This document shows positions 29,980-34,070 of a DNA stretch of 37,311 nt, piece by piece. The number at the start of each line of letters is the position of its first letter. Within the stretch, counting starts at the first letter, position 1. Both the position numbers and the translations under genes were made by a program. Under the pieces are notes generated by a model. That model had not been told where the DNA came from. It saw nothing but the letters and a program-made list of their open reading frames with translations, and did no database searches. This DNA is from Deltaproteobacteria bacterium (GTDB taxonomy: Bacteria; Bdellovibrionota; JACOXK01; 2-02-FULL-40-11): NCBI GenBank assembly GCA_016198185.1, contig JACQJD010000011.1, positions 1-37,311 on the forward strand, given 5' to 3'.

Positions 29980-30382
29980 GCGAAAATCATGAGAATAATT
30001 ACAGTTTTTGAATTTTAAGGCAAGCGCCACATGAACTTTAGCCGCCTCTTTTTGAAAGGGCGTGGAAAACGAGAAAACGCGTAGCTTGGTTATGGGAAAG
30101 AAGATTATTTTCTCAGGCACGGCGTCGCCCAGGCTCCTGCGGCTGGGCGCGCCTCAGCTCTCGGCCTGCCTGTCCGAAAACAGTCATTCTGAAGCCCGAA
30201 GGGCTGAAGAATCTTGTCGTCTCCGACGGTGAGATCCTTCCCCTTCGCTTCGCTCAGGGTCAGGATGACGGCATTTTCGGACAGCCTGGCCTGCGAGATG
30301 GCCTTCAAAAATAATCTTCTTTCCCATGCCCAGCCACAGAGTTTGTTTTCCACACCCTTTCAAAAAGAGGCGGCTTCTATTT
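29980..30382. other. Gene-free region between gspC promoter and NHL lipoprotein gene
   Basis: Apart from the gsp promoter at its edge, this stretch is occupied almost entirely by the nested inverted-repeat element 30041-30374. Open frames across it translate palindromic repeat DNA and have no start signals, so I call no gene here. Confidence 0.7.
30041..30374. repeat. 334-bp nested inverted-repeat element (contains copy C)
   Basis: Outer arms 30041-30070 and 30345-30374 are inverted copies (29 of 30 match). Further in, 30092-30111 and 30308-30327 match perfectly over 20 bp. The centre (about 30167-30289) is flanked by CTGTCCGAAAA and TTTTCGGACAG with GTCATTCTGA/CAGGATGAC just inside, the same end pattern as the repeat at 6002-6090. 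It looks like one palindromic element nested in another. There is no transposase. Its right end is 8 bp from the 3' end of the NHL lipoprotein gene. Confidence 0.8.
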
Positions 30383-31600
30383 TTATTTTGCTGGAAATCG
30401 CAGGACCCGATGATTTTGTGTGTCGGCAATCCAAATGAGGCCCCCATTGGTATAGACCCCTCTGGGGGTGTTGAGGGTATTGCCGTCGATTTTTCCATTA
30501 CGGTTGGCCCCTGCTGAGGTGAAATCTTTTTGTCCAAGAACTCTGGAGGCAGATGCGCCATTGGCGCCTGGCAAAGAATCAAAAACAACCACTCGGTGAT
30601 TTCCAGAATCGGCAATCAGAAATTGTTCACTCCCTTCATCTTGAAAAATATCGACCGGTGAAGAAAGCGTTGTTCGGGAGGTGCCAGAGCCGGCATCTGC
30701 CATCGAAGCTTGCCCCATGACGATATTGGCGCTGGTATTGTCAGAAGTGGGGAGCGAATTAAAAATCAAAATGCGGTTATTACCGGTATCGGCGATGAGG
30801 AGTTTATCAATGCTGAGATTAGACGTTGCAAAGACCCCATTTGGACTTTTAACGGTATTGGCAGCCGCTTGGCGGATATCTGCCTTTTCTGTATCGGGTT
30901 GTCCAACGACGACAGAGGCTTGGCTGCTGGTGAGGCCGACGCTGTTGTAAATGAGCACGCGGTTATTTCCAGTGTCTGCAACAAAGAGTTTATCGCCATT
31001 GTGATACACATCGGAAGGCTCATTGAGGGTATCGTCGCGTACACCTGTTGTACTGTTGTCTAATCGATTGGATTCCGATTCTGTGAAATTGGCATGGCCG
31101 ATGACACGGTCCGCATTGGCATTGTTGGCGGTGGGAATCGAGTCATAGACCAAGACACGGTTATTTCCGGTGTCGGCGATGTAAACCTTCCCCCCTTTTA
31201 CATGAACCGCGCGGGGCAGAAACAGCGTATTGCGATCGGCTTGCGTACCTCCTTGATTGGCGGAAGTGGCGTTCATGTCTGCTTGGCCGATGACAACCGT
31301 TGCAGCGGCTTGAGAAACCGTGGGGGCGGTATTCCAAATTAAAACGCGATTATTTTGAGTGTCTGCAACAAAAAGTTTCGTGCCATCAAAAAAAACGTTT
31401 CGAGGTGAGGAGAGGGAACTTGCGGTGGCATTAGACCCGCTGGCGCCAGAATTATTTTCGGCTTCTTCAAAATGTTTTTGTCCCAAAACCAACGTGGCAA
31501 ATTCTAGATCGGTATCTGGAGAGCTACCCATCATGCAACTGGAGAGAAGGAACACCATAGGAAAAAACAAATACCAGGGTGGGAACCTATAAAGATTCAT
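30383..31600 (-). CDS. NHL-repeat beta-propeller lipoprotein
   Basis: A 405-aa predicted lipoprotein: signal sequence MNLYRFPPWYLFFPMVFLLSSC with lipobox LSSC (Cys22). The mature protein is a set of six NHL repeats, each with a V/I-A-D-T/S-x-N-N/H-R-V core, consistent with a six-bladed propeller. Between blades lies a conserved V-x-G-Q/H motif (VIGQADMNA, VIGHANF, VVGQPD, VMGQAS, VLGQKDF). NHL propellers bind ligands or proteins; no catalytic residues are identified. It is a stand-alone gene downstream of the Memo-like gene and separated from it by a strong terminator. No Shine-Dalgarno precedes the ATG. Confidence 0.88.
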   Translation of the reverse strand: MNLYRFPPWYLFFPMVFLLSSCMMGSSPDTDLEFATLVLGQKHFEEAENNSGASGSNATASSLSSPRNVFFDGTKLFVADTQNNRVLIWNTAPTVSQAAATVVIGQADMNATSANQGGTQADRNTLFLPRAVHVKGGKVYIADTGNNRVLVYDSIPTANNANADRVIGHANFTESESNRLDNSTTGVRDDTLNEPSDVYHNGDKLFVADTGNNRVLIYNSVGLTSSQASVVVGQPDTEKADIRQAAANTVKSPNGVFATSNLSIDKLLIADTGNNRILIFNSLPTSDNTSANIVMGQASMADAGSGTSRTTLSSPVDIFQDEGSEQFLIADSGNHRVVVFDSLPGANGASASRVLGQKDFTSAGANRNGKIDGNTLNTPRGVYTNGGLIWIADTQNHRVLRFPAK

Positions 31601-31626: not shown

Positions 31627-31657
31627 AAAAAAAGGCTACCAAAATTCGTTTTGGTAG
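31627..31657 (-). terminator. Intrinsic terminator after the Memo-like gene
   Basis: Perfect 9-bp stem CTACCAAAA / TTTTGGTAG (31636-31644 and 31649-31657) around a 4-nt loop. Reading the minus strand, it is followed by CC and seven Ts. It begins 7 nt past the stop of the gene ending at 31665 and isolates it from the NHL lipoprotein gene. Confidence 0.9.
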
Positions 31658-31664
31658 TTTGACT

Positions 31665-32255
31665 TTAAAGTTTTAGTACCCATTGGAGGCTCGTTAAGCT
31701 TTCTAAACCACAAATGTAGTAAGGACTTTTTTTCCAAGTTTCAAAAAATAATTTGGGGGGGAGGGTGTGAAAATCATGGAGAAGTTTTTGGTTCATGGTT
31801 TTTGCCTGAGAAGGTTTGACAAATTCCACCAAATTGGCCAGTGCCAAAAAGCCCGTTGCCGTGGGTTGTTTTTGGTGGAACCTCTGTAAAGCTTTTCCAA
31901 GCTCAACGCATCGTTCAAATGAAATATCTTGAACCAATATGGGAATGATTGGGGTGTGTTCCAGCTGGGCGTTCCAAAATGAAAATACCCCCCAGAGATC
32001 TTCTGCTTCAAAAGAAAGTGCATCTTTTTTTAAAGGGGGAAAAAGATCCATAAGTTCTGTGAGCCCCTCCTGGTCAATCGTTGGACTTCCATTTTTTAAA
32101 GGGATGACCGTATCTCTCGGAACACTGACCCTTGCGCCTTGTCCAGTGTGGTTGGTCATGAGAATGACGAGGCGTTTGAGATTTTTTTGTTTTTGGATAG
32201 GGTCCCAGACAGAAGCAAGTGCTGTGTCCGAAGTGTGAGGATGAATCCAAACCAT
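31665..32255 (-). CDS. Divergent short Memo-family protein
   Basis: A 196-aa protein that aligns by eye with the Memo family (AmmeMemoRadiSam system protein B). It has WIHPHTSD near the start (family PHAGY; H7), VILMTNHTGQGARVSVP (family VILGPNHTG; H36), a TPLG-like VIPLKNG with IDQEGLTEL, IIPILVQDISFERCVELGKAL (family IVPI...G.A), and a C-terminal ICGLESL (family CG motif; C182). The His, His and Cys that bind metal in human MEMO1 are therefore kept. The family HSxE and SSDFTHY segments are replaced by SFEAE and LANLVEF. The N-terminal about 40-50 residues of Memo are missing. An alternative TTG start lies at 32273. The biochemical role of Memo proteins is unsettled. Confidence 0.5.
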   Translation of the reverse strand: MVWIHPHTSDTALASVWDPIQKQKNLKRLVILMTNHTGQGARVSVPRDTVIPLKNGSPTIDQEGLTELMDLFPPLKKDALSFEAEDLWGVFSFWNAQLEHTPIIPILVQDISFERCVELGKALQRFHQKQPTATGFLALANLVEFVKPSQAKTMNQKLLHDFHTLPPKLFFETWKKSPYYICGLESLTSLQWVLKL

Positions 32256-32264
32256 AGAGGGGTA

Positions 32265-32270
32265 TTTATA
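32265..32270 (-). promoter_or_regulatory. Possible -10 box of the Memo-like gene
   Basis: TATAAA on the minus strand, 9 nt before the ATG at 32255. No good -35 is present at 16-18 nt. The position mirrors the -10 boxes of the ATPase and yceD genes and would give a nearly leaderless transcript. Confidence 0.35.
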
Positions 32271-32286
32271 CAAGAATCCCGCTCAC

Positions 32287-32315
32287 TTGACATCTCAAAA
32301 ATGATTCAGTAGTTT
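32287..32315 (+). promoter_or_regulatory. Promoter of the yceD-fab cluster
   Basis: A perfect -35 TTGACA (32287-32292), a 17-nt spacer and a weak -10 TAGTTT (32310-32315). The start codon at 32325 is 9 nt after the -10, so the transcript would start within about 3 nt of the ATG. No Shine-Dalgarno is present. The -10 is poor, hence moderate confidence. Confidence 0.45.
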
Positions 32316-32324
32316 CAACCGTTT

Positions 32325-32867
32325 ATGATTCTTCATCTCCATGAATTGGAAGCCTTTCAAACGTTTTGGTTTACGGAAAAAGATGACTGGTTTCGAAACA
32401 TTTTTTTAAATCTGGGAATTCCGGTCAAAGGACCCATTCACTTGACGTTAGAGATTTATAAAAATCAAGAAACCATCTCGATGAAAGGACATTTACAAGC
32501 AGCTTGTGCTTGGACCTGCGATCGTTGTGCAGAAGAAGCGTCCTGGAAGGTAGACGAATTTTTTTCACCTACGTTTATTCACGGAAAAGAACCTCGAAAT
32601 TTAGACATCGGGGTTGCCAAATCCGAATTAGATACAACGTATTTTCAGAAAAATCATCTTGAATTAAAATCGATGATGATGGAACAAGTAGAGCTCTTAA
32701 AACCCGTTCAATTCCTTTGCCAAGAACAGTGTCGAGGGCTTTGTCAGCAGTGCGGACACAATTTGAACAAGGGAATCTGTGCTTGTAAAGAAACTTGTAA
32801 AGAAAAAGAAAGTATTTCTTCTTCAGGGTTTCATGTGTTAAAAAACTTTAAACTTAAAAAGTCATAA
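32325..32867 (+). CDS. yceD: YceD/DUF177 family protein
   Basis: A 180-aa cytosolic protein of the DUF177 family, which in other bacteria is linked to 23S rRNA accumulation and is usually encoded just before rpmF, as here. Family marks are HLQAACAWTCDRC in the middle and the C-terminal metal-binding-like segment LCQEQCRGLCQQCGHNLNKGICAC. The Cys-rich end is complete. It is the first gene of the fatty-acid cluster, with rpmF 13 bp downstream. There is no Shine-Dalgarno, and a promoter lies directly upstream. Confidence 0.88.
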   Translation: MILHLHELEAFQTFWFTEKDDWFRNIFLNLGIPVKGPIHLTLEIYKNQETISMKGHLQAACAWTCDRCAEEASWKVDEFFSPTFIHGKEPRNLDIGVAKSELDTTYFQKNHLELKSMMMEQVELLKPVQFLCQEQCRGLCQQCGHNLNKGICACKETCKEKESISSSGFHVLKNFKLKKS

Positions 32868-32880
32868 AAAAGGGGGAAAT

Positions 32881-33063
32881 ATGCCAGTACCAAAGAAAAA
32901 AAGATCCAGACGAAAAGGGCGTTCGAGACGTGCACATCAAAAATTGGATGTGGCACAGTATATAGAGTGTCCCAATTGTAAGAAAGCCATGGCTTCTCAC
33001 TGTGTCTGTGAATTTTGTGGTCATTATAAAGGTAAGGAAATCATTCGTTCTGAGATGTTATGA
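32881..33063 (+). CDS. rpmF: Ribosomal protein bL32
   Basis: A 60-aa large-subunit ribosomal protein. It has the family start MPVPKKKRSRRKGRSRRAH and a zinc ribbon with CPNC and CEFC pairs. The four cysteines are intact, so this is the zinc-binding form. A good Shine-Dalgarno (AAGGGGGAAA) precedes it, in contrast to yceD. Its stop overlaps the plsX start by 4 bp (ATGA). The rpmF-plsX linkage is widespread and couples ribosome and membrane synthesis. Confidence 0.97.
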   Translation: MPVPKKKRSRRKGRSRRAHQKLDVAQYIECPNCKKAMASHCVCEFCGHYKGKEIIRSEML

Positions 33064-34070
33064 AAATTGCATTGGATGCCATGGGGGGAGACTTTGCCCC
33101 TCGTGAAAATGTGGAAGGGGCATTGCTGGCGGCACGTCGCTATGGCATTTCAGTTGTTTTGATCGGGGACGAGCCGACCCTTCGAAAAGAACTTCATAAG
33201 TCCAGATTTACCAGTCAACTCATTGAAATTGTGCATGCGGCAGAGTCTATTGATATGGGCGAAAAATCGGTTCAGGCGGTTCGTGAAAAAAAACAATCTT
33301 CGCTTCATGTGGGGCTCGATCTGCTTAAAAAAAACGAGGTTCAAGCTTTTGTGAGCCCAGGTCACACGGGGGCTTTGATGACGGCTTCGGCGTTGATCCT
33401 CAAACGATTGGATCAGGTGGAGCGTCCTGCCATTGCAGGGCTCATCCCAACGCTTCGAGGAAATACGGTGGTTTTGGATTTGGGGGCCAATGTGGATTGC
33501 AAGCCCCATCACTTGGTTCAATTTGCAACGATGGGCAGTGTCTATGCCCATGTGATTGAAGGAAAAACCAAACCCAAAGTTGGGTTGTTGTGCAATGGCA
33601 CTGAGCCAACGAAGGGGACAGAACTCTTACGTACCACGTATCAGCTGATCGAAAAAACAAATCTCAACTTTGTGGGATTTGTAGAAAGCTTGGATGTGTT
33701 TAAGGGTAAGGTGGATGTCGTGGTGTGTGATGGTTTTGTTGGGAATGTTTTTCTCAAAACCATCGAGGGGATGGTTTCAGCAACGTCCATTTTAATTCGT
33801 CAAGATATTCAACGAAATATGTTTTCAAAAGCGTTATTTGGGCTTTTTTATATGCTCTTTAAAAGCACGCTTAAAAATTTAGGCAAAAAATTTGATTATT
33901 CGGAATATGGCGCAGCCCCGCTGTTGGGGGTCAATGGATTGGTCTTTGTGTGTCACGGGAAATCGTCTCGCAAGGCCATCCAAAATGCGTTGATCAGGGC
34001 GCGTTCTTCGGTGGAAGGGCATTTTTTAGAAACGCTCAACCGAGAAATGTTGAAGGTCCATGTGGTATGA
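33060..34070 (+). CDS. plsX: Phosphate acyltransferase PlsX
   Basis: Converts acyl-ACP to acyl-phosphate, the donor for PlsY in phospholipid synthesis; a peripheral membrane enzyme. The 336-aa protein has the family start MKIALDAMGGDFAP, SPGHTGALMTAS, VLDLGANVDCKP, LLCNGTEPTKGTEL, VCDGFVGNVFLKTIEG and the C-terminal YGAAPLLGVNG. Length is normal. The ATG overlaps the rpmF stop (ATGA), and the stop overlaps the fabH start (ATGA), showing tight translational coupling. Confidence 0.97.
   Translation: MKIALDAMGGDFAPRENVEGALLAARRYGISVVLIGDEPTLRKELHKSRFTSQLIEIVHAAESIDMGEKSVQAVREKKQSSLHVGLDLLKKNEVQAFVSPGHTGALMTASALILKRLDQVERPAIAGLIPTLRGNTVVLDLGANVDCKPHHLVQFATMGSVYAHVIEGKTKPKVGLLCNGTEPTKGTELLRTTYQLIEKTNLNFVGFVESLDVFKGKVDVVVCDGFVGNVFLKTIEGMVSATSILIRQDIQRNMFSKALFGLFYMLFKSTLKNLGKKFDYSEYGAAPLLGVNGLVFVCHGKSSRKAIQNALIRARSSVEGHFLETLNREMLKVHVV

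Follow-up and report, generated by a model that had tools for sequence, protein, structure and literature searches.

The 37,311-nucleotide stretch of DNA analysed here (the window; contig JACQJD010000011.1 of the Deltaproteobacteria bacterium assembly GCA_016198185.1) encodes a Memo-family protein of unusually small size, and we favor, with some reservation, the reading that this is a lineage-specific, fast-evolving and compacted Memo that has no radical SAM partner, is kept under protein-level constraint and probably still binds metal. In the scenario we propose, Memo (AmmeMemoRadiSam protein B) would have been inherited vertically in one bacterial family in which the radical SAM partner was lost, and, freed from that partner, would have been cut back towards its metal-site core, differently in two genera. 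In the genus of the compact protein this would have removed about 42 N-terminal and about 38 C-terminal residues and swapped most of the other conserved residues. The remainder most likely forms a small core of the Memo/LigB type that holds one Fe(II) or Cu(I) on H7, H36 and C182; its ancestral reaction is probably gone, and its present role is probably that of a small protein for metal binding or redox chemistry.

The sequence-only reading placed an open reading frame with H7, H36 and C182 at this site; the frame stands as described, lies on the minus strand (Table 1) and is a coding gene. Its codon score is 0.226 bits per codon in frame and negative in all five other frames, with control values, from four genes outside the training set, of 0.273 for yceD, 0.029 for rpmF and 0.403 and 0.367 for the other two. 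GC at codon positions 1, 2 and 3 (0.53, 0.36 and 0.41) is the same as in the window's 18 training genes, and 196 open codons would arise at this base composition with a chance of about 8e-6. Upstream, a candidate promoter, read by eye and absent from the list of a consensus scan, can be aligned with comparable elements from three genomes belonging to a sister genus; the ATG follows its -10-like element by only 9 bases, so that the mRNA is perhaps nearly leaderless. Downstream lies a hairpin resembling an intrinsic terminator, one of two such sites found in the region with 1.0 expected, so that its place and not the number of sites is the evidence. From these two elements the gene looks like a transcription unit of its own. 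We rejected an alternative start, a TTG at 32273 that would give 202 aa, as it would overlap the -10-like element. Frameshifting was likewise rejected as the origin of the short ends, there being no room for longer ones: 69 bp separate the ATG from that of yceD, where 42 extra residues would need 126 bp, and the hairpin begins 7 bp past the stop. A plasmid search gave no match. Farther downstream, between the T2SS and NHL genes (30105-30353 of the window), there are frames whose peptides resemble, by eye, those of an interspersed intergenic repeat, and similar DNA seems, again by eye, to be present in L045 near 2500.

Table 1. Positions in the window of the compact Memo gene, its metal-site codons, the candidate regulatory elements and the neighboring genes
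Feature	Position	Strand	Remark
Compact Memo (AmmeMemoSam_B-like) CDS	31665..32255	-	196 aa; ATG start at 32255, stop ends at 31665; called from profiles and codon use
H7 codon	32235..32237	-	aligned with MEMO1 metal ligand H49
H36 codon	32148..32150	-	aligned with MEMO1 metal ligand H81
C182 codon	31710..31712	-	aligned with MEMO1 metal ligand C244
D86 codon	31998..32000	-	place of MEMO1 H131 (near metal, non-ligand)
N141 codon	31833..31835	-	place of MEMO1 D189 (non-ligand); N also in three sister-genus copies
E144 codon	31824..31826	-	place of MEMO1 H192 (non-ligand)
Candidate promoter	32265..32293	-	-35 ATGTCA (32293-32288), 17-base spacer, -10 TATAAA (32270-32265)
Intrinsic-terminator-like hairpin	31636..31657	-	9-bp stem, 4-base loop, T run; 7 bases past stop
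yceD	32325..32867	+	divergent neighbor anchoring the shared locus; Pfam YceD 73.2 bits
rpmF (ribosomal protein L32)	32881..33063	+	
plsX	33060..34070	+	followed by fabH, fabD, fabG
NHL-repeat protein	30383..31600	-	downstream neighbor of compact Memo

Membership in the Memo family, first proposed from motifs seen by eye, was borne out by HMM search in two profile libraries: the protein scores 28.0 bits against Pfam Memo PF01875 (cut-off 27, E 1.6e-6, profile positions 46-227 of 269) and 56.3 bits against NCBIfam TIGR04336, AmmeMemoSam_B (cut-off 26, E 2.8e-15, positions 53-235 of 270). An AlphaFold2 model built on a 40-sequence alignment reaches a mean pLDDT of 89.3 and a pTM of 0.88, and both Foldseek and VIA-align rank human MEMO1 (PDB 7kq8, 7l5c, 3bcz) first for it. 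In the VIA superposition on 7kq8, 192 of the 196 residues of the model lie over MEMO1 43-259 (Z 20.2, 2.2 Å rmsd), the MEMO1-like fold that had been suggested for checking. By the two profile libraries and the superposition of this confident model, the protein is a divergent homologue of Memo, or AmmeMemoRadiSam protein B, and neither of the outcomes named beforehand as refuting this was encountered. One could still suppose that it is no Memo at all and that an open frame resembles one by chance, since the Pfam score is 1 bit over its cut-off and a single-sequence PDB search gave no match up to E 10 (MEMO1 is reached from sequence only via the Memo family profile); against a TIGR04336 score 30 bits over cut-off, a confident predicted fold with MEMO1 ranked first, a coding signal and a sister-genus Memo in the equivalent position, we regard this as hardly credible.

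Next after MEMO1 the model finds proteins of the LigB type (Z 12.8-15.8), extradiol dioxygenases such as DesB and aminophenol dioxygenase with relatives such as TK2203, which share its overall fold at 7-13% identity. The dioxygenase superfamily is reportedly the subject of the 2019 JBC study by Burroughs et al. Whereas the third metal ligand of the LigB-type dioxygenases is Glu, as the available text of PMC11081632 has it, alignment to MEMO1 puts Cys at that place in the compact protein, which differs in this from the two-His-one-Glu ligand set.

Within the Memo family the compact protein appears to be a variant, atypical member, with several motifs replaced or missing. Complete, unfused Memo frames usually measure about 265-300 aa, and at 196 aa the compact protein is about 70 residues shorter than AmmeMemoSam_B; we treat length as typical of Memo rather than as defining it, and see in it no ground for exclusion. 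The superposition leaves MEMO1 1-42 and 260-297 without predicted counterparts. The sequence-only reading had listed the N-terminal segment and the HSxE and SSDFxHY segments as lost: some 42 N-terminal residues are indeed gone, but the two inner segments are not deleted and instead have their key residues replaced (H131 by D86, D189 by N141, H192 by E144), and the loss of the C-terminus, the last ~38 residues of MEMO1, comes in addition. More broadly, the His of EH(A/S), SSDxxH(Y/F), NSGxxxGD and VVxYA are replaced or missing, and of the 38 columns that at least 90% of a set of 38 canonical Memos share, the compact protein keeps 10.

The proposed equivalence of H7, H36 and C182 to H49, H81 and C244 of MEMO1 holds by superposition and by sequence alignment, the latter drawn from a profile of the Memo rows against the MEMO1 chain and from two sequence alignments, with MEMO1 numbers counted by hand at an offset of 4. 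Across 40 aligned rows only P6, H7, H36, G56, V90, F93, C182 and G183 are invariant. All three ligands are among the 10 columns kept by the compact protein, which has a probability of 0.014 if the kept columns are random; for the eight columns kept in both it and the Memo of one sister-genus genome, G005, the chance is 0.007. With columns conserved at 95% (28) the corresponding chances are 0.026 and 0.017, and at 100% (18) they are 0.10 and 0.07. Judged from these alignments, ligand retention is only modestly beyond chance, suggestive rather than strong, the more so as the aligner may lean on the ligand motifs. In MEMO1, H49, H81 and C244 bind both iron and copper, H131 and H192 lie near the metal without being ligands, iron binding is abolished by H49A and C244S, and D189N and H192A do not significantly change it (all from the available text of PMC11081632). 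By alignment, then, the compact Memo keeps the residues that MEMO1 needs for iron, with the neighbors tested in MEMO1 changed. We infer that it probably still binds metal, a single ion held by two His and one Cys. Because the histidines beside the metal, at the H131 and H192 positions, are changed, the ancestral Memo reaction has probably been lost.

Six genomes of the family were compared: the source genome (G000, 92% complete), three of a sister genus (G001, G004 and G005, 90%, 71% and 61% complete) and two of other genera (G002, and G003, 83% complete). All three sister-genus genomes carry a Memo at the corresponding site, where it is transcribed away from yceD-rpmF; plsX comes next in G001 and G005, and the G004 contig has a fragment of it alone. 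These Memos resemble the compact one in their place by yceD-rpmF, in the promoter-like element, in the ligand motifs PH, NH and CG and the N at the D189 position (3/3), and in a genome without a radical SAM match over cut-off. They differ in how they are shortened, keeping the N-terminus and lacking a helical stretch that runs from the SSDFxHY region to CG. The G005 protein, identical to that of JAHFEZ010000025.1 (Deltaproteobacteria bacterium isolate nzgw280), gives a model with a pLDDT of 95.5 that superposes on MEMO1 4-259 (Z 24.1, 2.2 Å, 203 residues) and thus has the same predicted end, MEMO1 259, as the compact Memo. The suggestion that the compact Memo forms a separate subfamily was therefore half right: a second Memo, shortened differently, under purifying selection and in G005 with the same MEMO1 end, occupies this position in the sister genus. 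A separate function for the compact protein is possible.

The compact Memo is 20-28% identical to the sister-genus Memos, depending on the alignment; counted over the aligned part the value is 27-28%, where the same pair of genera shows 58-60% identity for plsX and 44-48% for yceD. Its end branch in the Memo tree measures 9.5 (median 0.54). G000 and the sister genus are not grouped in the tree, where the three come together in 4% of the 200 bootstrap replicates, and a single clade of G000 and the sister genus is not rejected (p-AU 0.267). We discarded the tree as the sole argument for orthology, the branch of the compact Memo being too long; orthology is suggested instead by the shared place and the shared features. 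In the wider phylum, probably Bdellovibrionota although NCBI lists the G005 record under Myxococcota, Memo matches occur in 30 of 368 genomes, and among these 30 G000 alone has every match starting beyond model position 40; partial or split matches occur in G001, G004, G005, G129, G141 and G350 as well. A contig scan with the compact protein alone returned 11 pattern matches, none of them confirmed, and so no second genome with the exact compact form; the literature matches listed contain no description of a shortened bacterial Memo, although one may well have been published.

Elsewhere in the family the neighbor of yceD varies by genus (L043, L044), being Memo, fxsA or a D-Ala-D-Ala-ligase-like frame, while yceD, plsX, fabH and fabD stay together. 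G002 has a frame resembling D-Ala-D-Ala ligase by eye at the place of Memo near yceD; in G003, fxsA lies upstream of yceD, and the frames after it resemble the NHL and gspC genes of the window by eye. A profile that included the Memos of the family found no Memo in either genome up to E 1. This absence bears on the main rival to our reading, slow gene loss, in which Memo is on its way out under relaxed selection after the loss of radical SAM, the parts that disappear differ from genus to genus, the metal residues persist owing to their position in the core of the fold, and the compact Memo has little or no function. The missing gene in two genera, the very long branch of the compact Memo and the broken copy of G001 (disrupted by an out-of-frame deletion on a contig of 3,291 bases, possibly an assembly error) fit gene loss equally well, and the AMMECR1 genes of the family are degenerate too.

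Selection and gene structure speak against such decay. Between the intact sister-genus copies, G004 and G005, dN/dS of Memo is 0.19 (bootstrap 0.14-0.34; 0.13 for yceD), or 0.19 and 0.26 on the two Memo parts alone, and the two fragments of the broken copy in G001 stand at 0.13-0.18 relative to the intact ones, so that this copy seems to have been constrained until recently and broken only since. Synonymous sites between the two genera are saturated. When neutral evolution of the G005 frame was simulated with substitutions alone, none of 2000 frames was still open after 0.9 changes per site (2/2000 after 0.5). The compact gene, moreover, has gene-like codon use and promoter-like and terminator-like elements. 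Constraint at the protein level is thus direct in the sister genus and indirect for the compact Memo, its genus being represented by one genome. Weighing both sides, we consider gene loss a real contender, though clearly the less probable account, and continue to prefer a compacted Memo that is still maintained.

The sequence-only reading also described the gene as standing alone, without radical SAM or AMMECR1 partners. This holds at the locus, and the genome has no radical SAM match over cut-off: its best TIGR04337 match scores 21.2 bits with a cut-off of 220, below what the radical SAM member of the AmmeMemoRadiSam system would reach, and none of the six family genomes has a match over that cut-off, a weak absence in G003, G004 and G005 at 83%, 71% and 61% completeness. 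It does not hold for AMMECR1, of which a degenerate copy lies on another contig of G000, scoring 63 bits (Pfam cut-off 25), staying below the NCBIfam cut-offs of 91 and 99 and lacking LRGCIG. That motif is lost in all three AMMECR1 proteins of the family, from G000, G002 and G003, and present in six other aligned rows; no AMMECR1 was found in the sister genus (G001, G004, G005), weakly so in G004 and G005 at 71% and 61% completeness. The G000 gene (L048:5574-6116) adjoins, by eye, comEC-like and outer-membrane-like frames, away from Memo.

Memo-Ammecr1 systems are mentioned in the available text of PMC7159879, which cites Burroughs et al. 2019 (JBC), as does that of PMC7694686. Two other genomes of the phylum, G142 and G143, have Memo and AMMECR1 fused in one protein (L062:1333-3027 and L065:1372-2952; Pfam Memo 194 and 182 bits, AMMECR1 165 and 158 bits), with an N-terminus that looks hydrophobic by eye and could be an export signal. 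Could the compact Memo and the diverged AMMECR1 still do the job of Memo in full, the lost enzyme being replaced by a different radical SAM protein? G000 does keep both proteins, both diverged. They are encoded on different contigs, however; the sister genus has Memo with no AMMECR1 match (in genomes 90%, 71% and 61% complete), and G002 and G003 have AMMECR1 with no Memo match; the best radical SAM match in G000 is far below cut-off, as given above, and the residues near the metal are replaced in the compact Memo. We think such full replacement unlikely. In the same class, G006 (L036) has a TIGR04337 match of 255.9 bits and no Memo or AMMECR1 match, and the three genes therefore seem to have been lost in different orders.

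Taken together, this one family documents a stepwise dismantling of the AmmeMemoRadiSam set. We know of no established primary function for bacterial Memo proteins. For human MEMO1, too, the primary function is stated to be unknown in the available text of PMC11081632. A bolder and more tentative idea, which we put forward as a possibility short of an even chance, is that the family harbors a natural minimal Memo, which shed its partner, its end or ends, the inner helical stretch and metal-side residues differently in two genera, kept two His and one Cys in all four copies, and would work on its own as a small carrier of metal or a redox protein. If this were true, the primary conserved job of Memo would be to hold a metal, separable from AmmeMemoRadiSam chemistry. 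With its metal triad present and the neighboring residues gone, the compact Memo is nature's parallel to the mutants made of MEMO1, and offers a small, testable protein for asking whether selection keeps metal binding alone. It may thereby help to show which parts of the poorly understood Memo family are needed.
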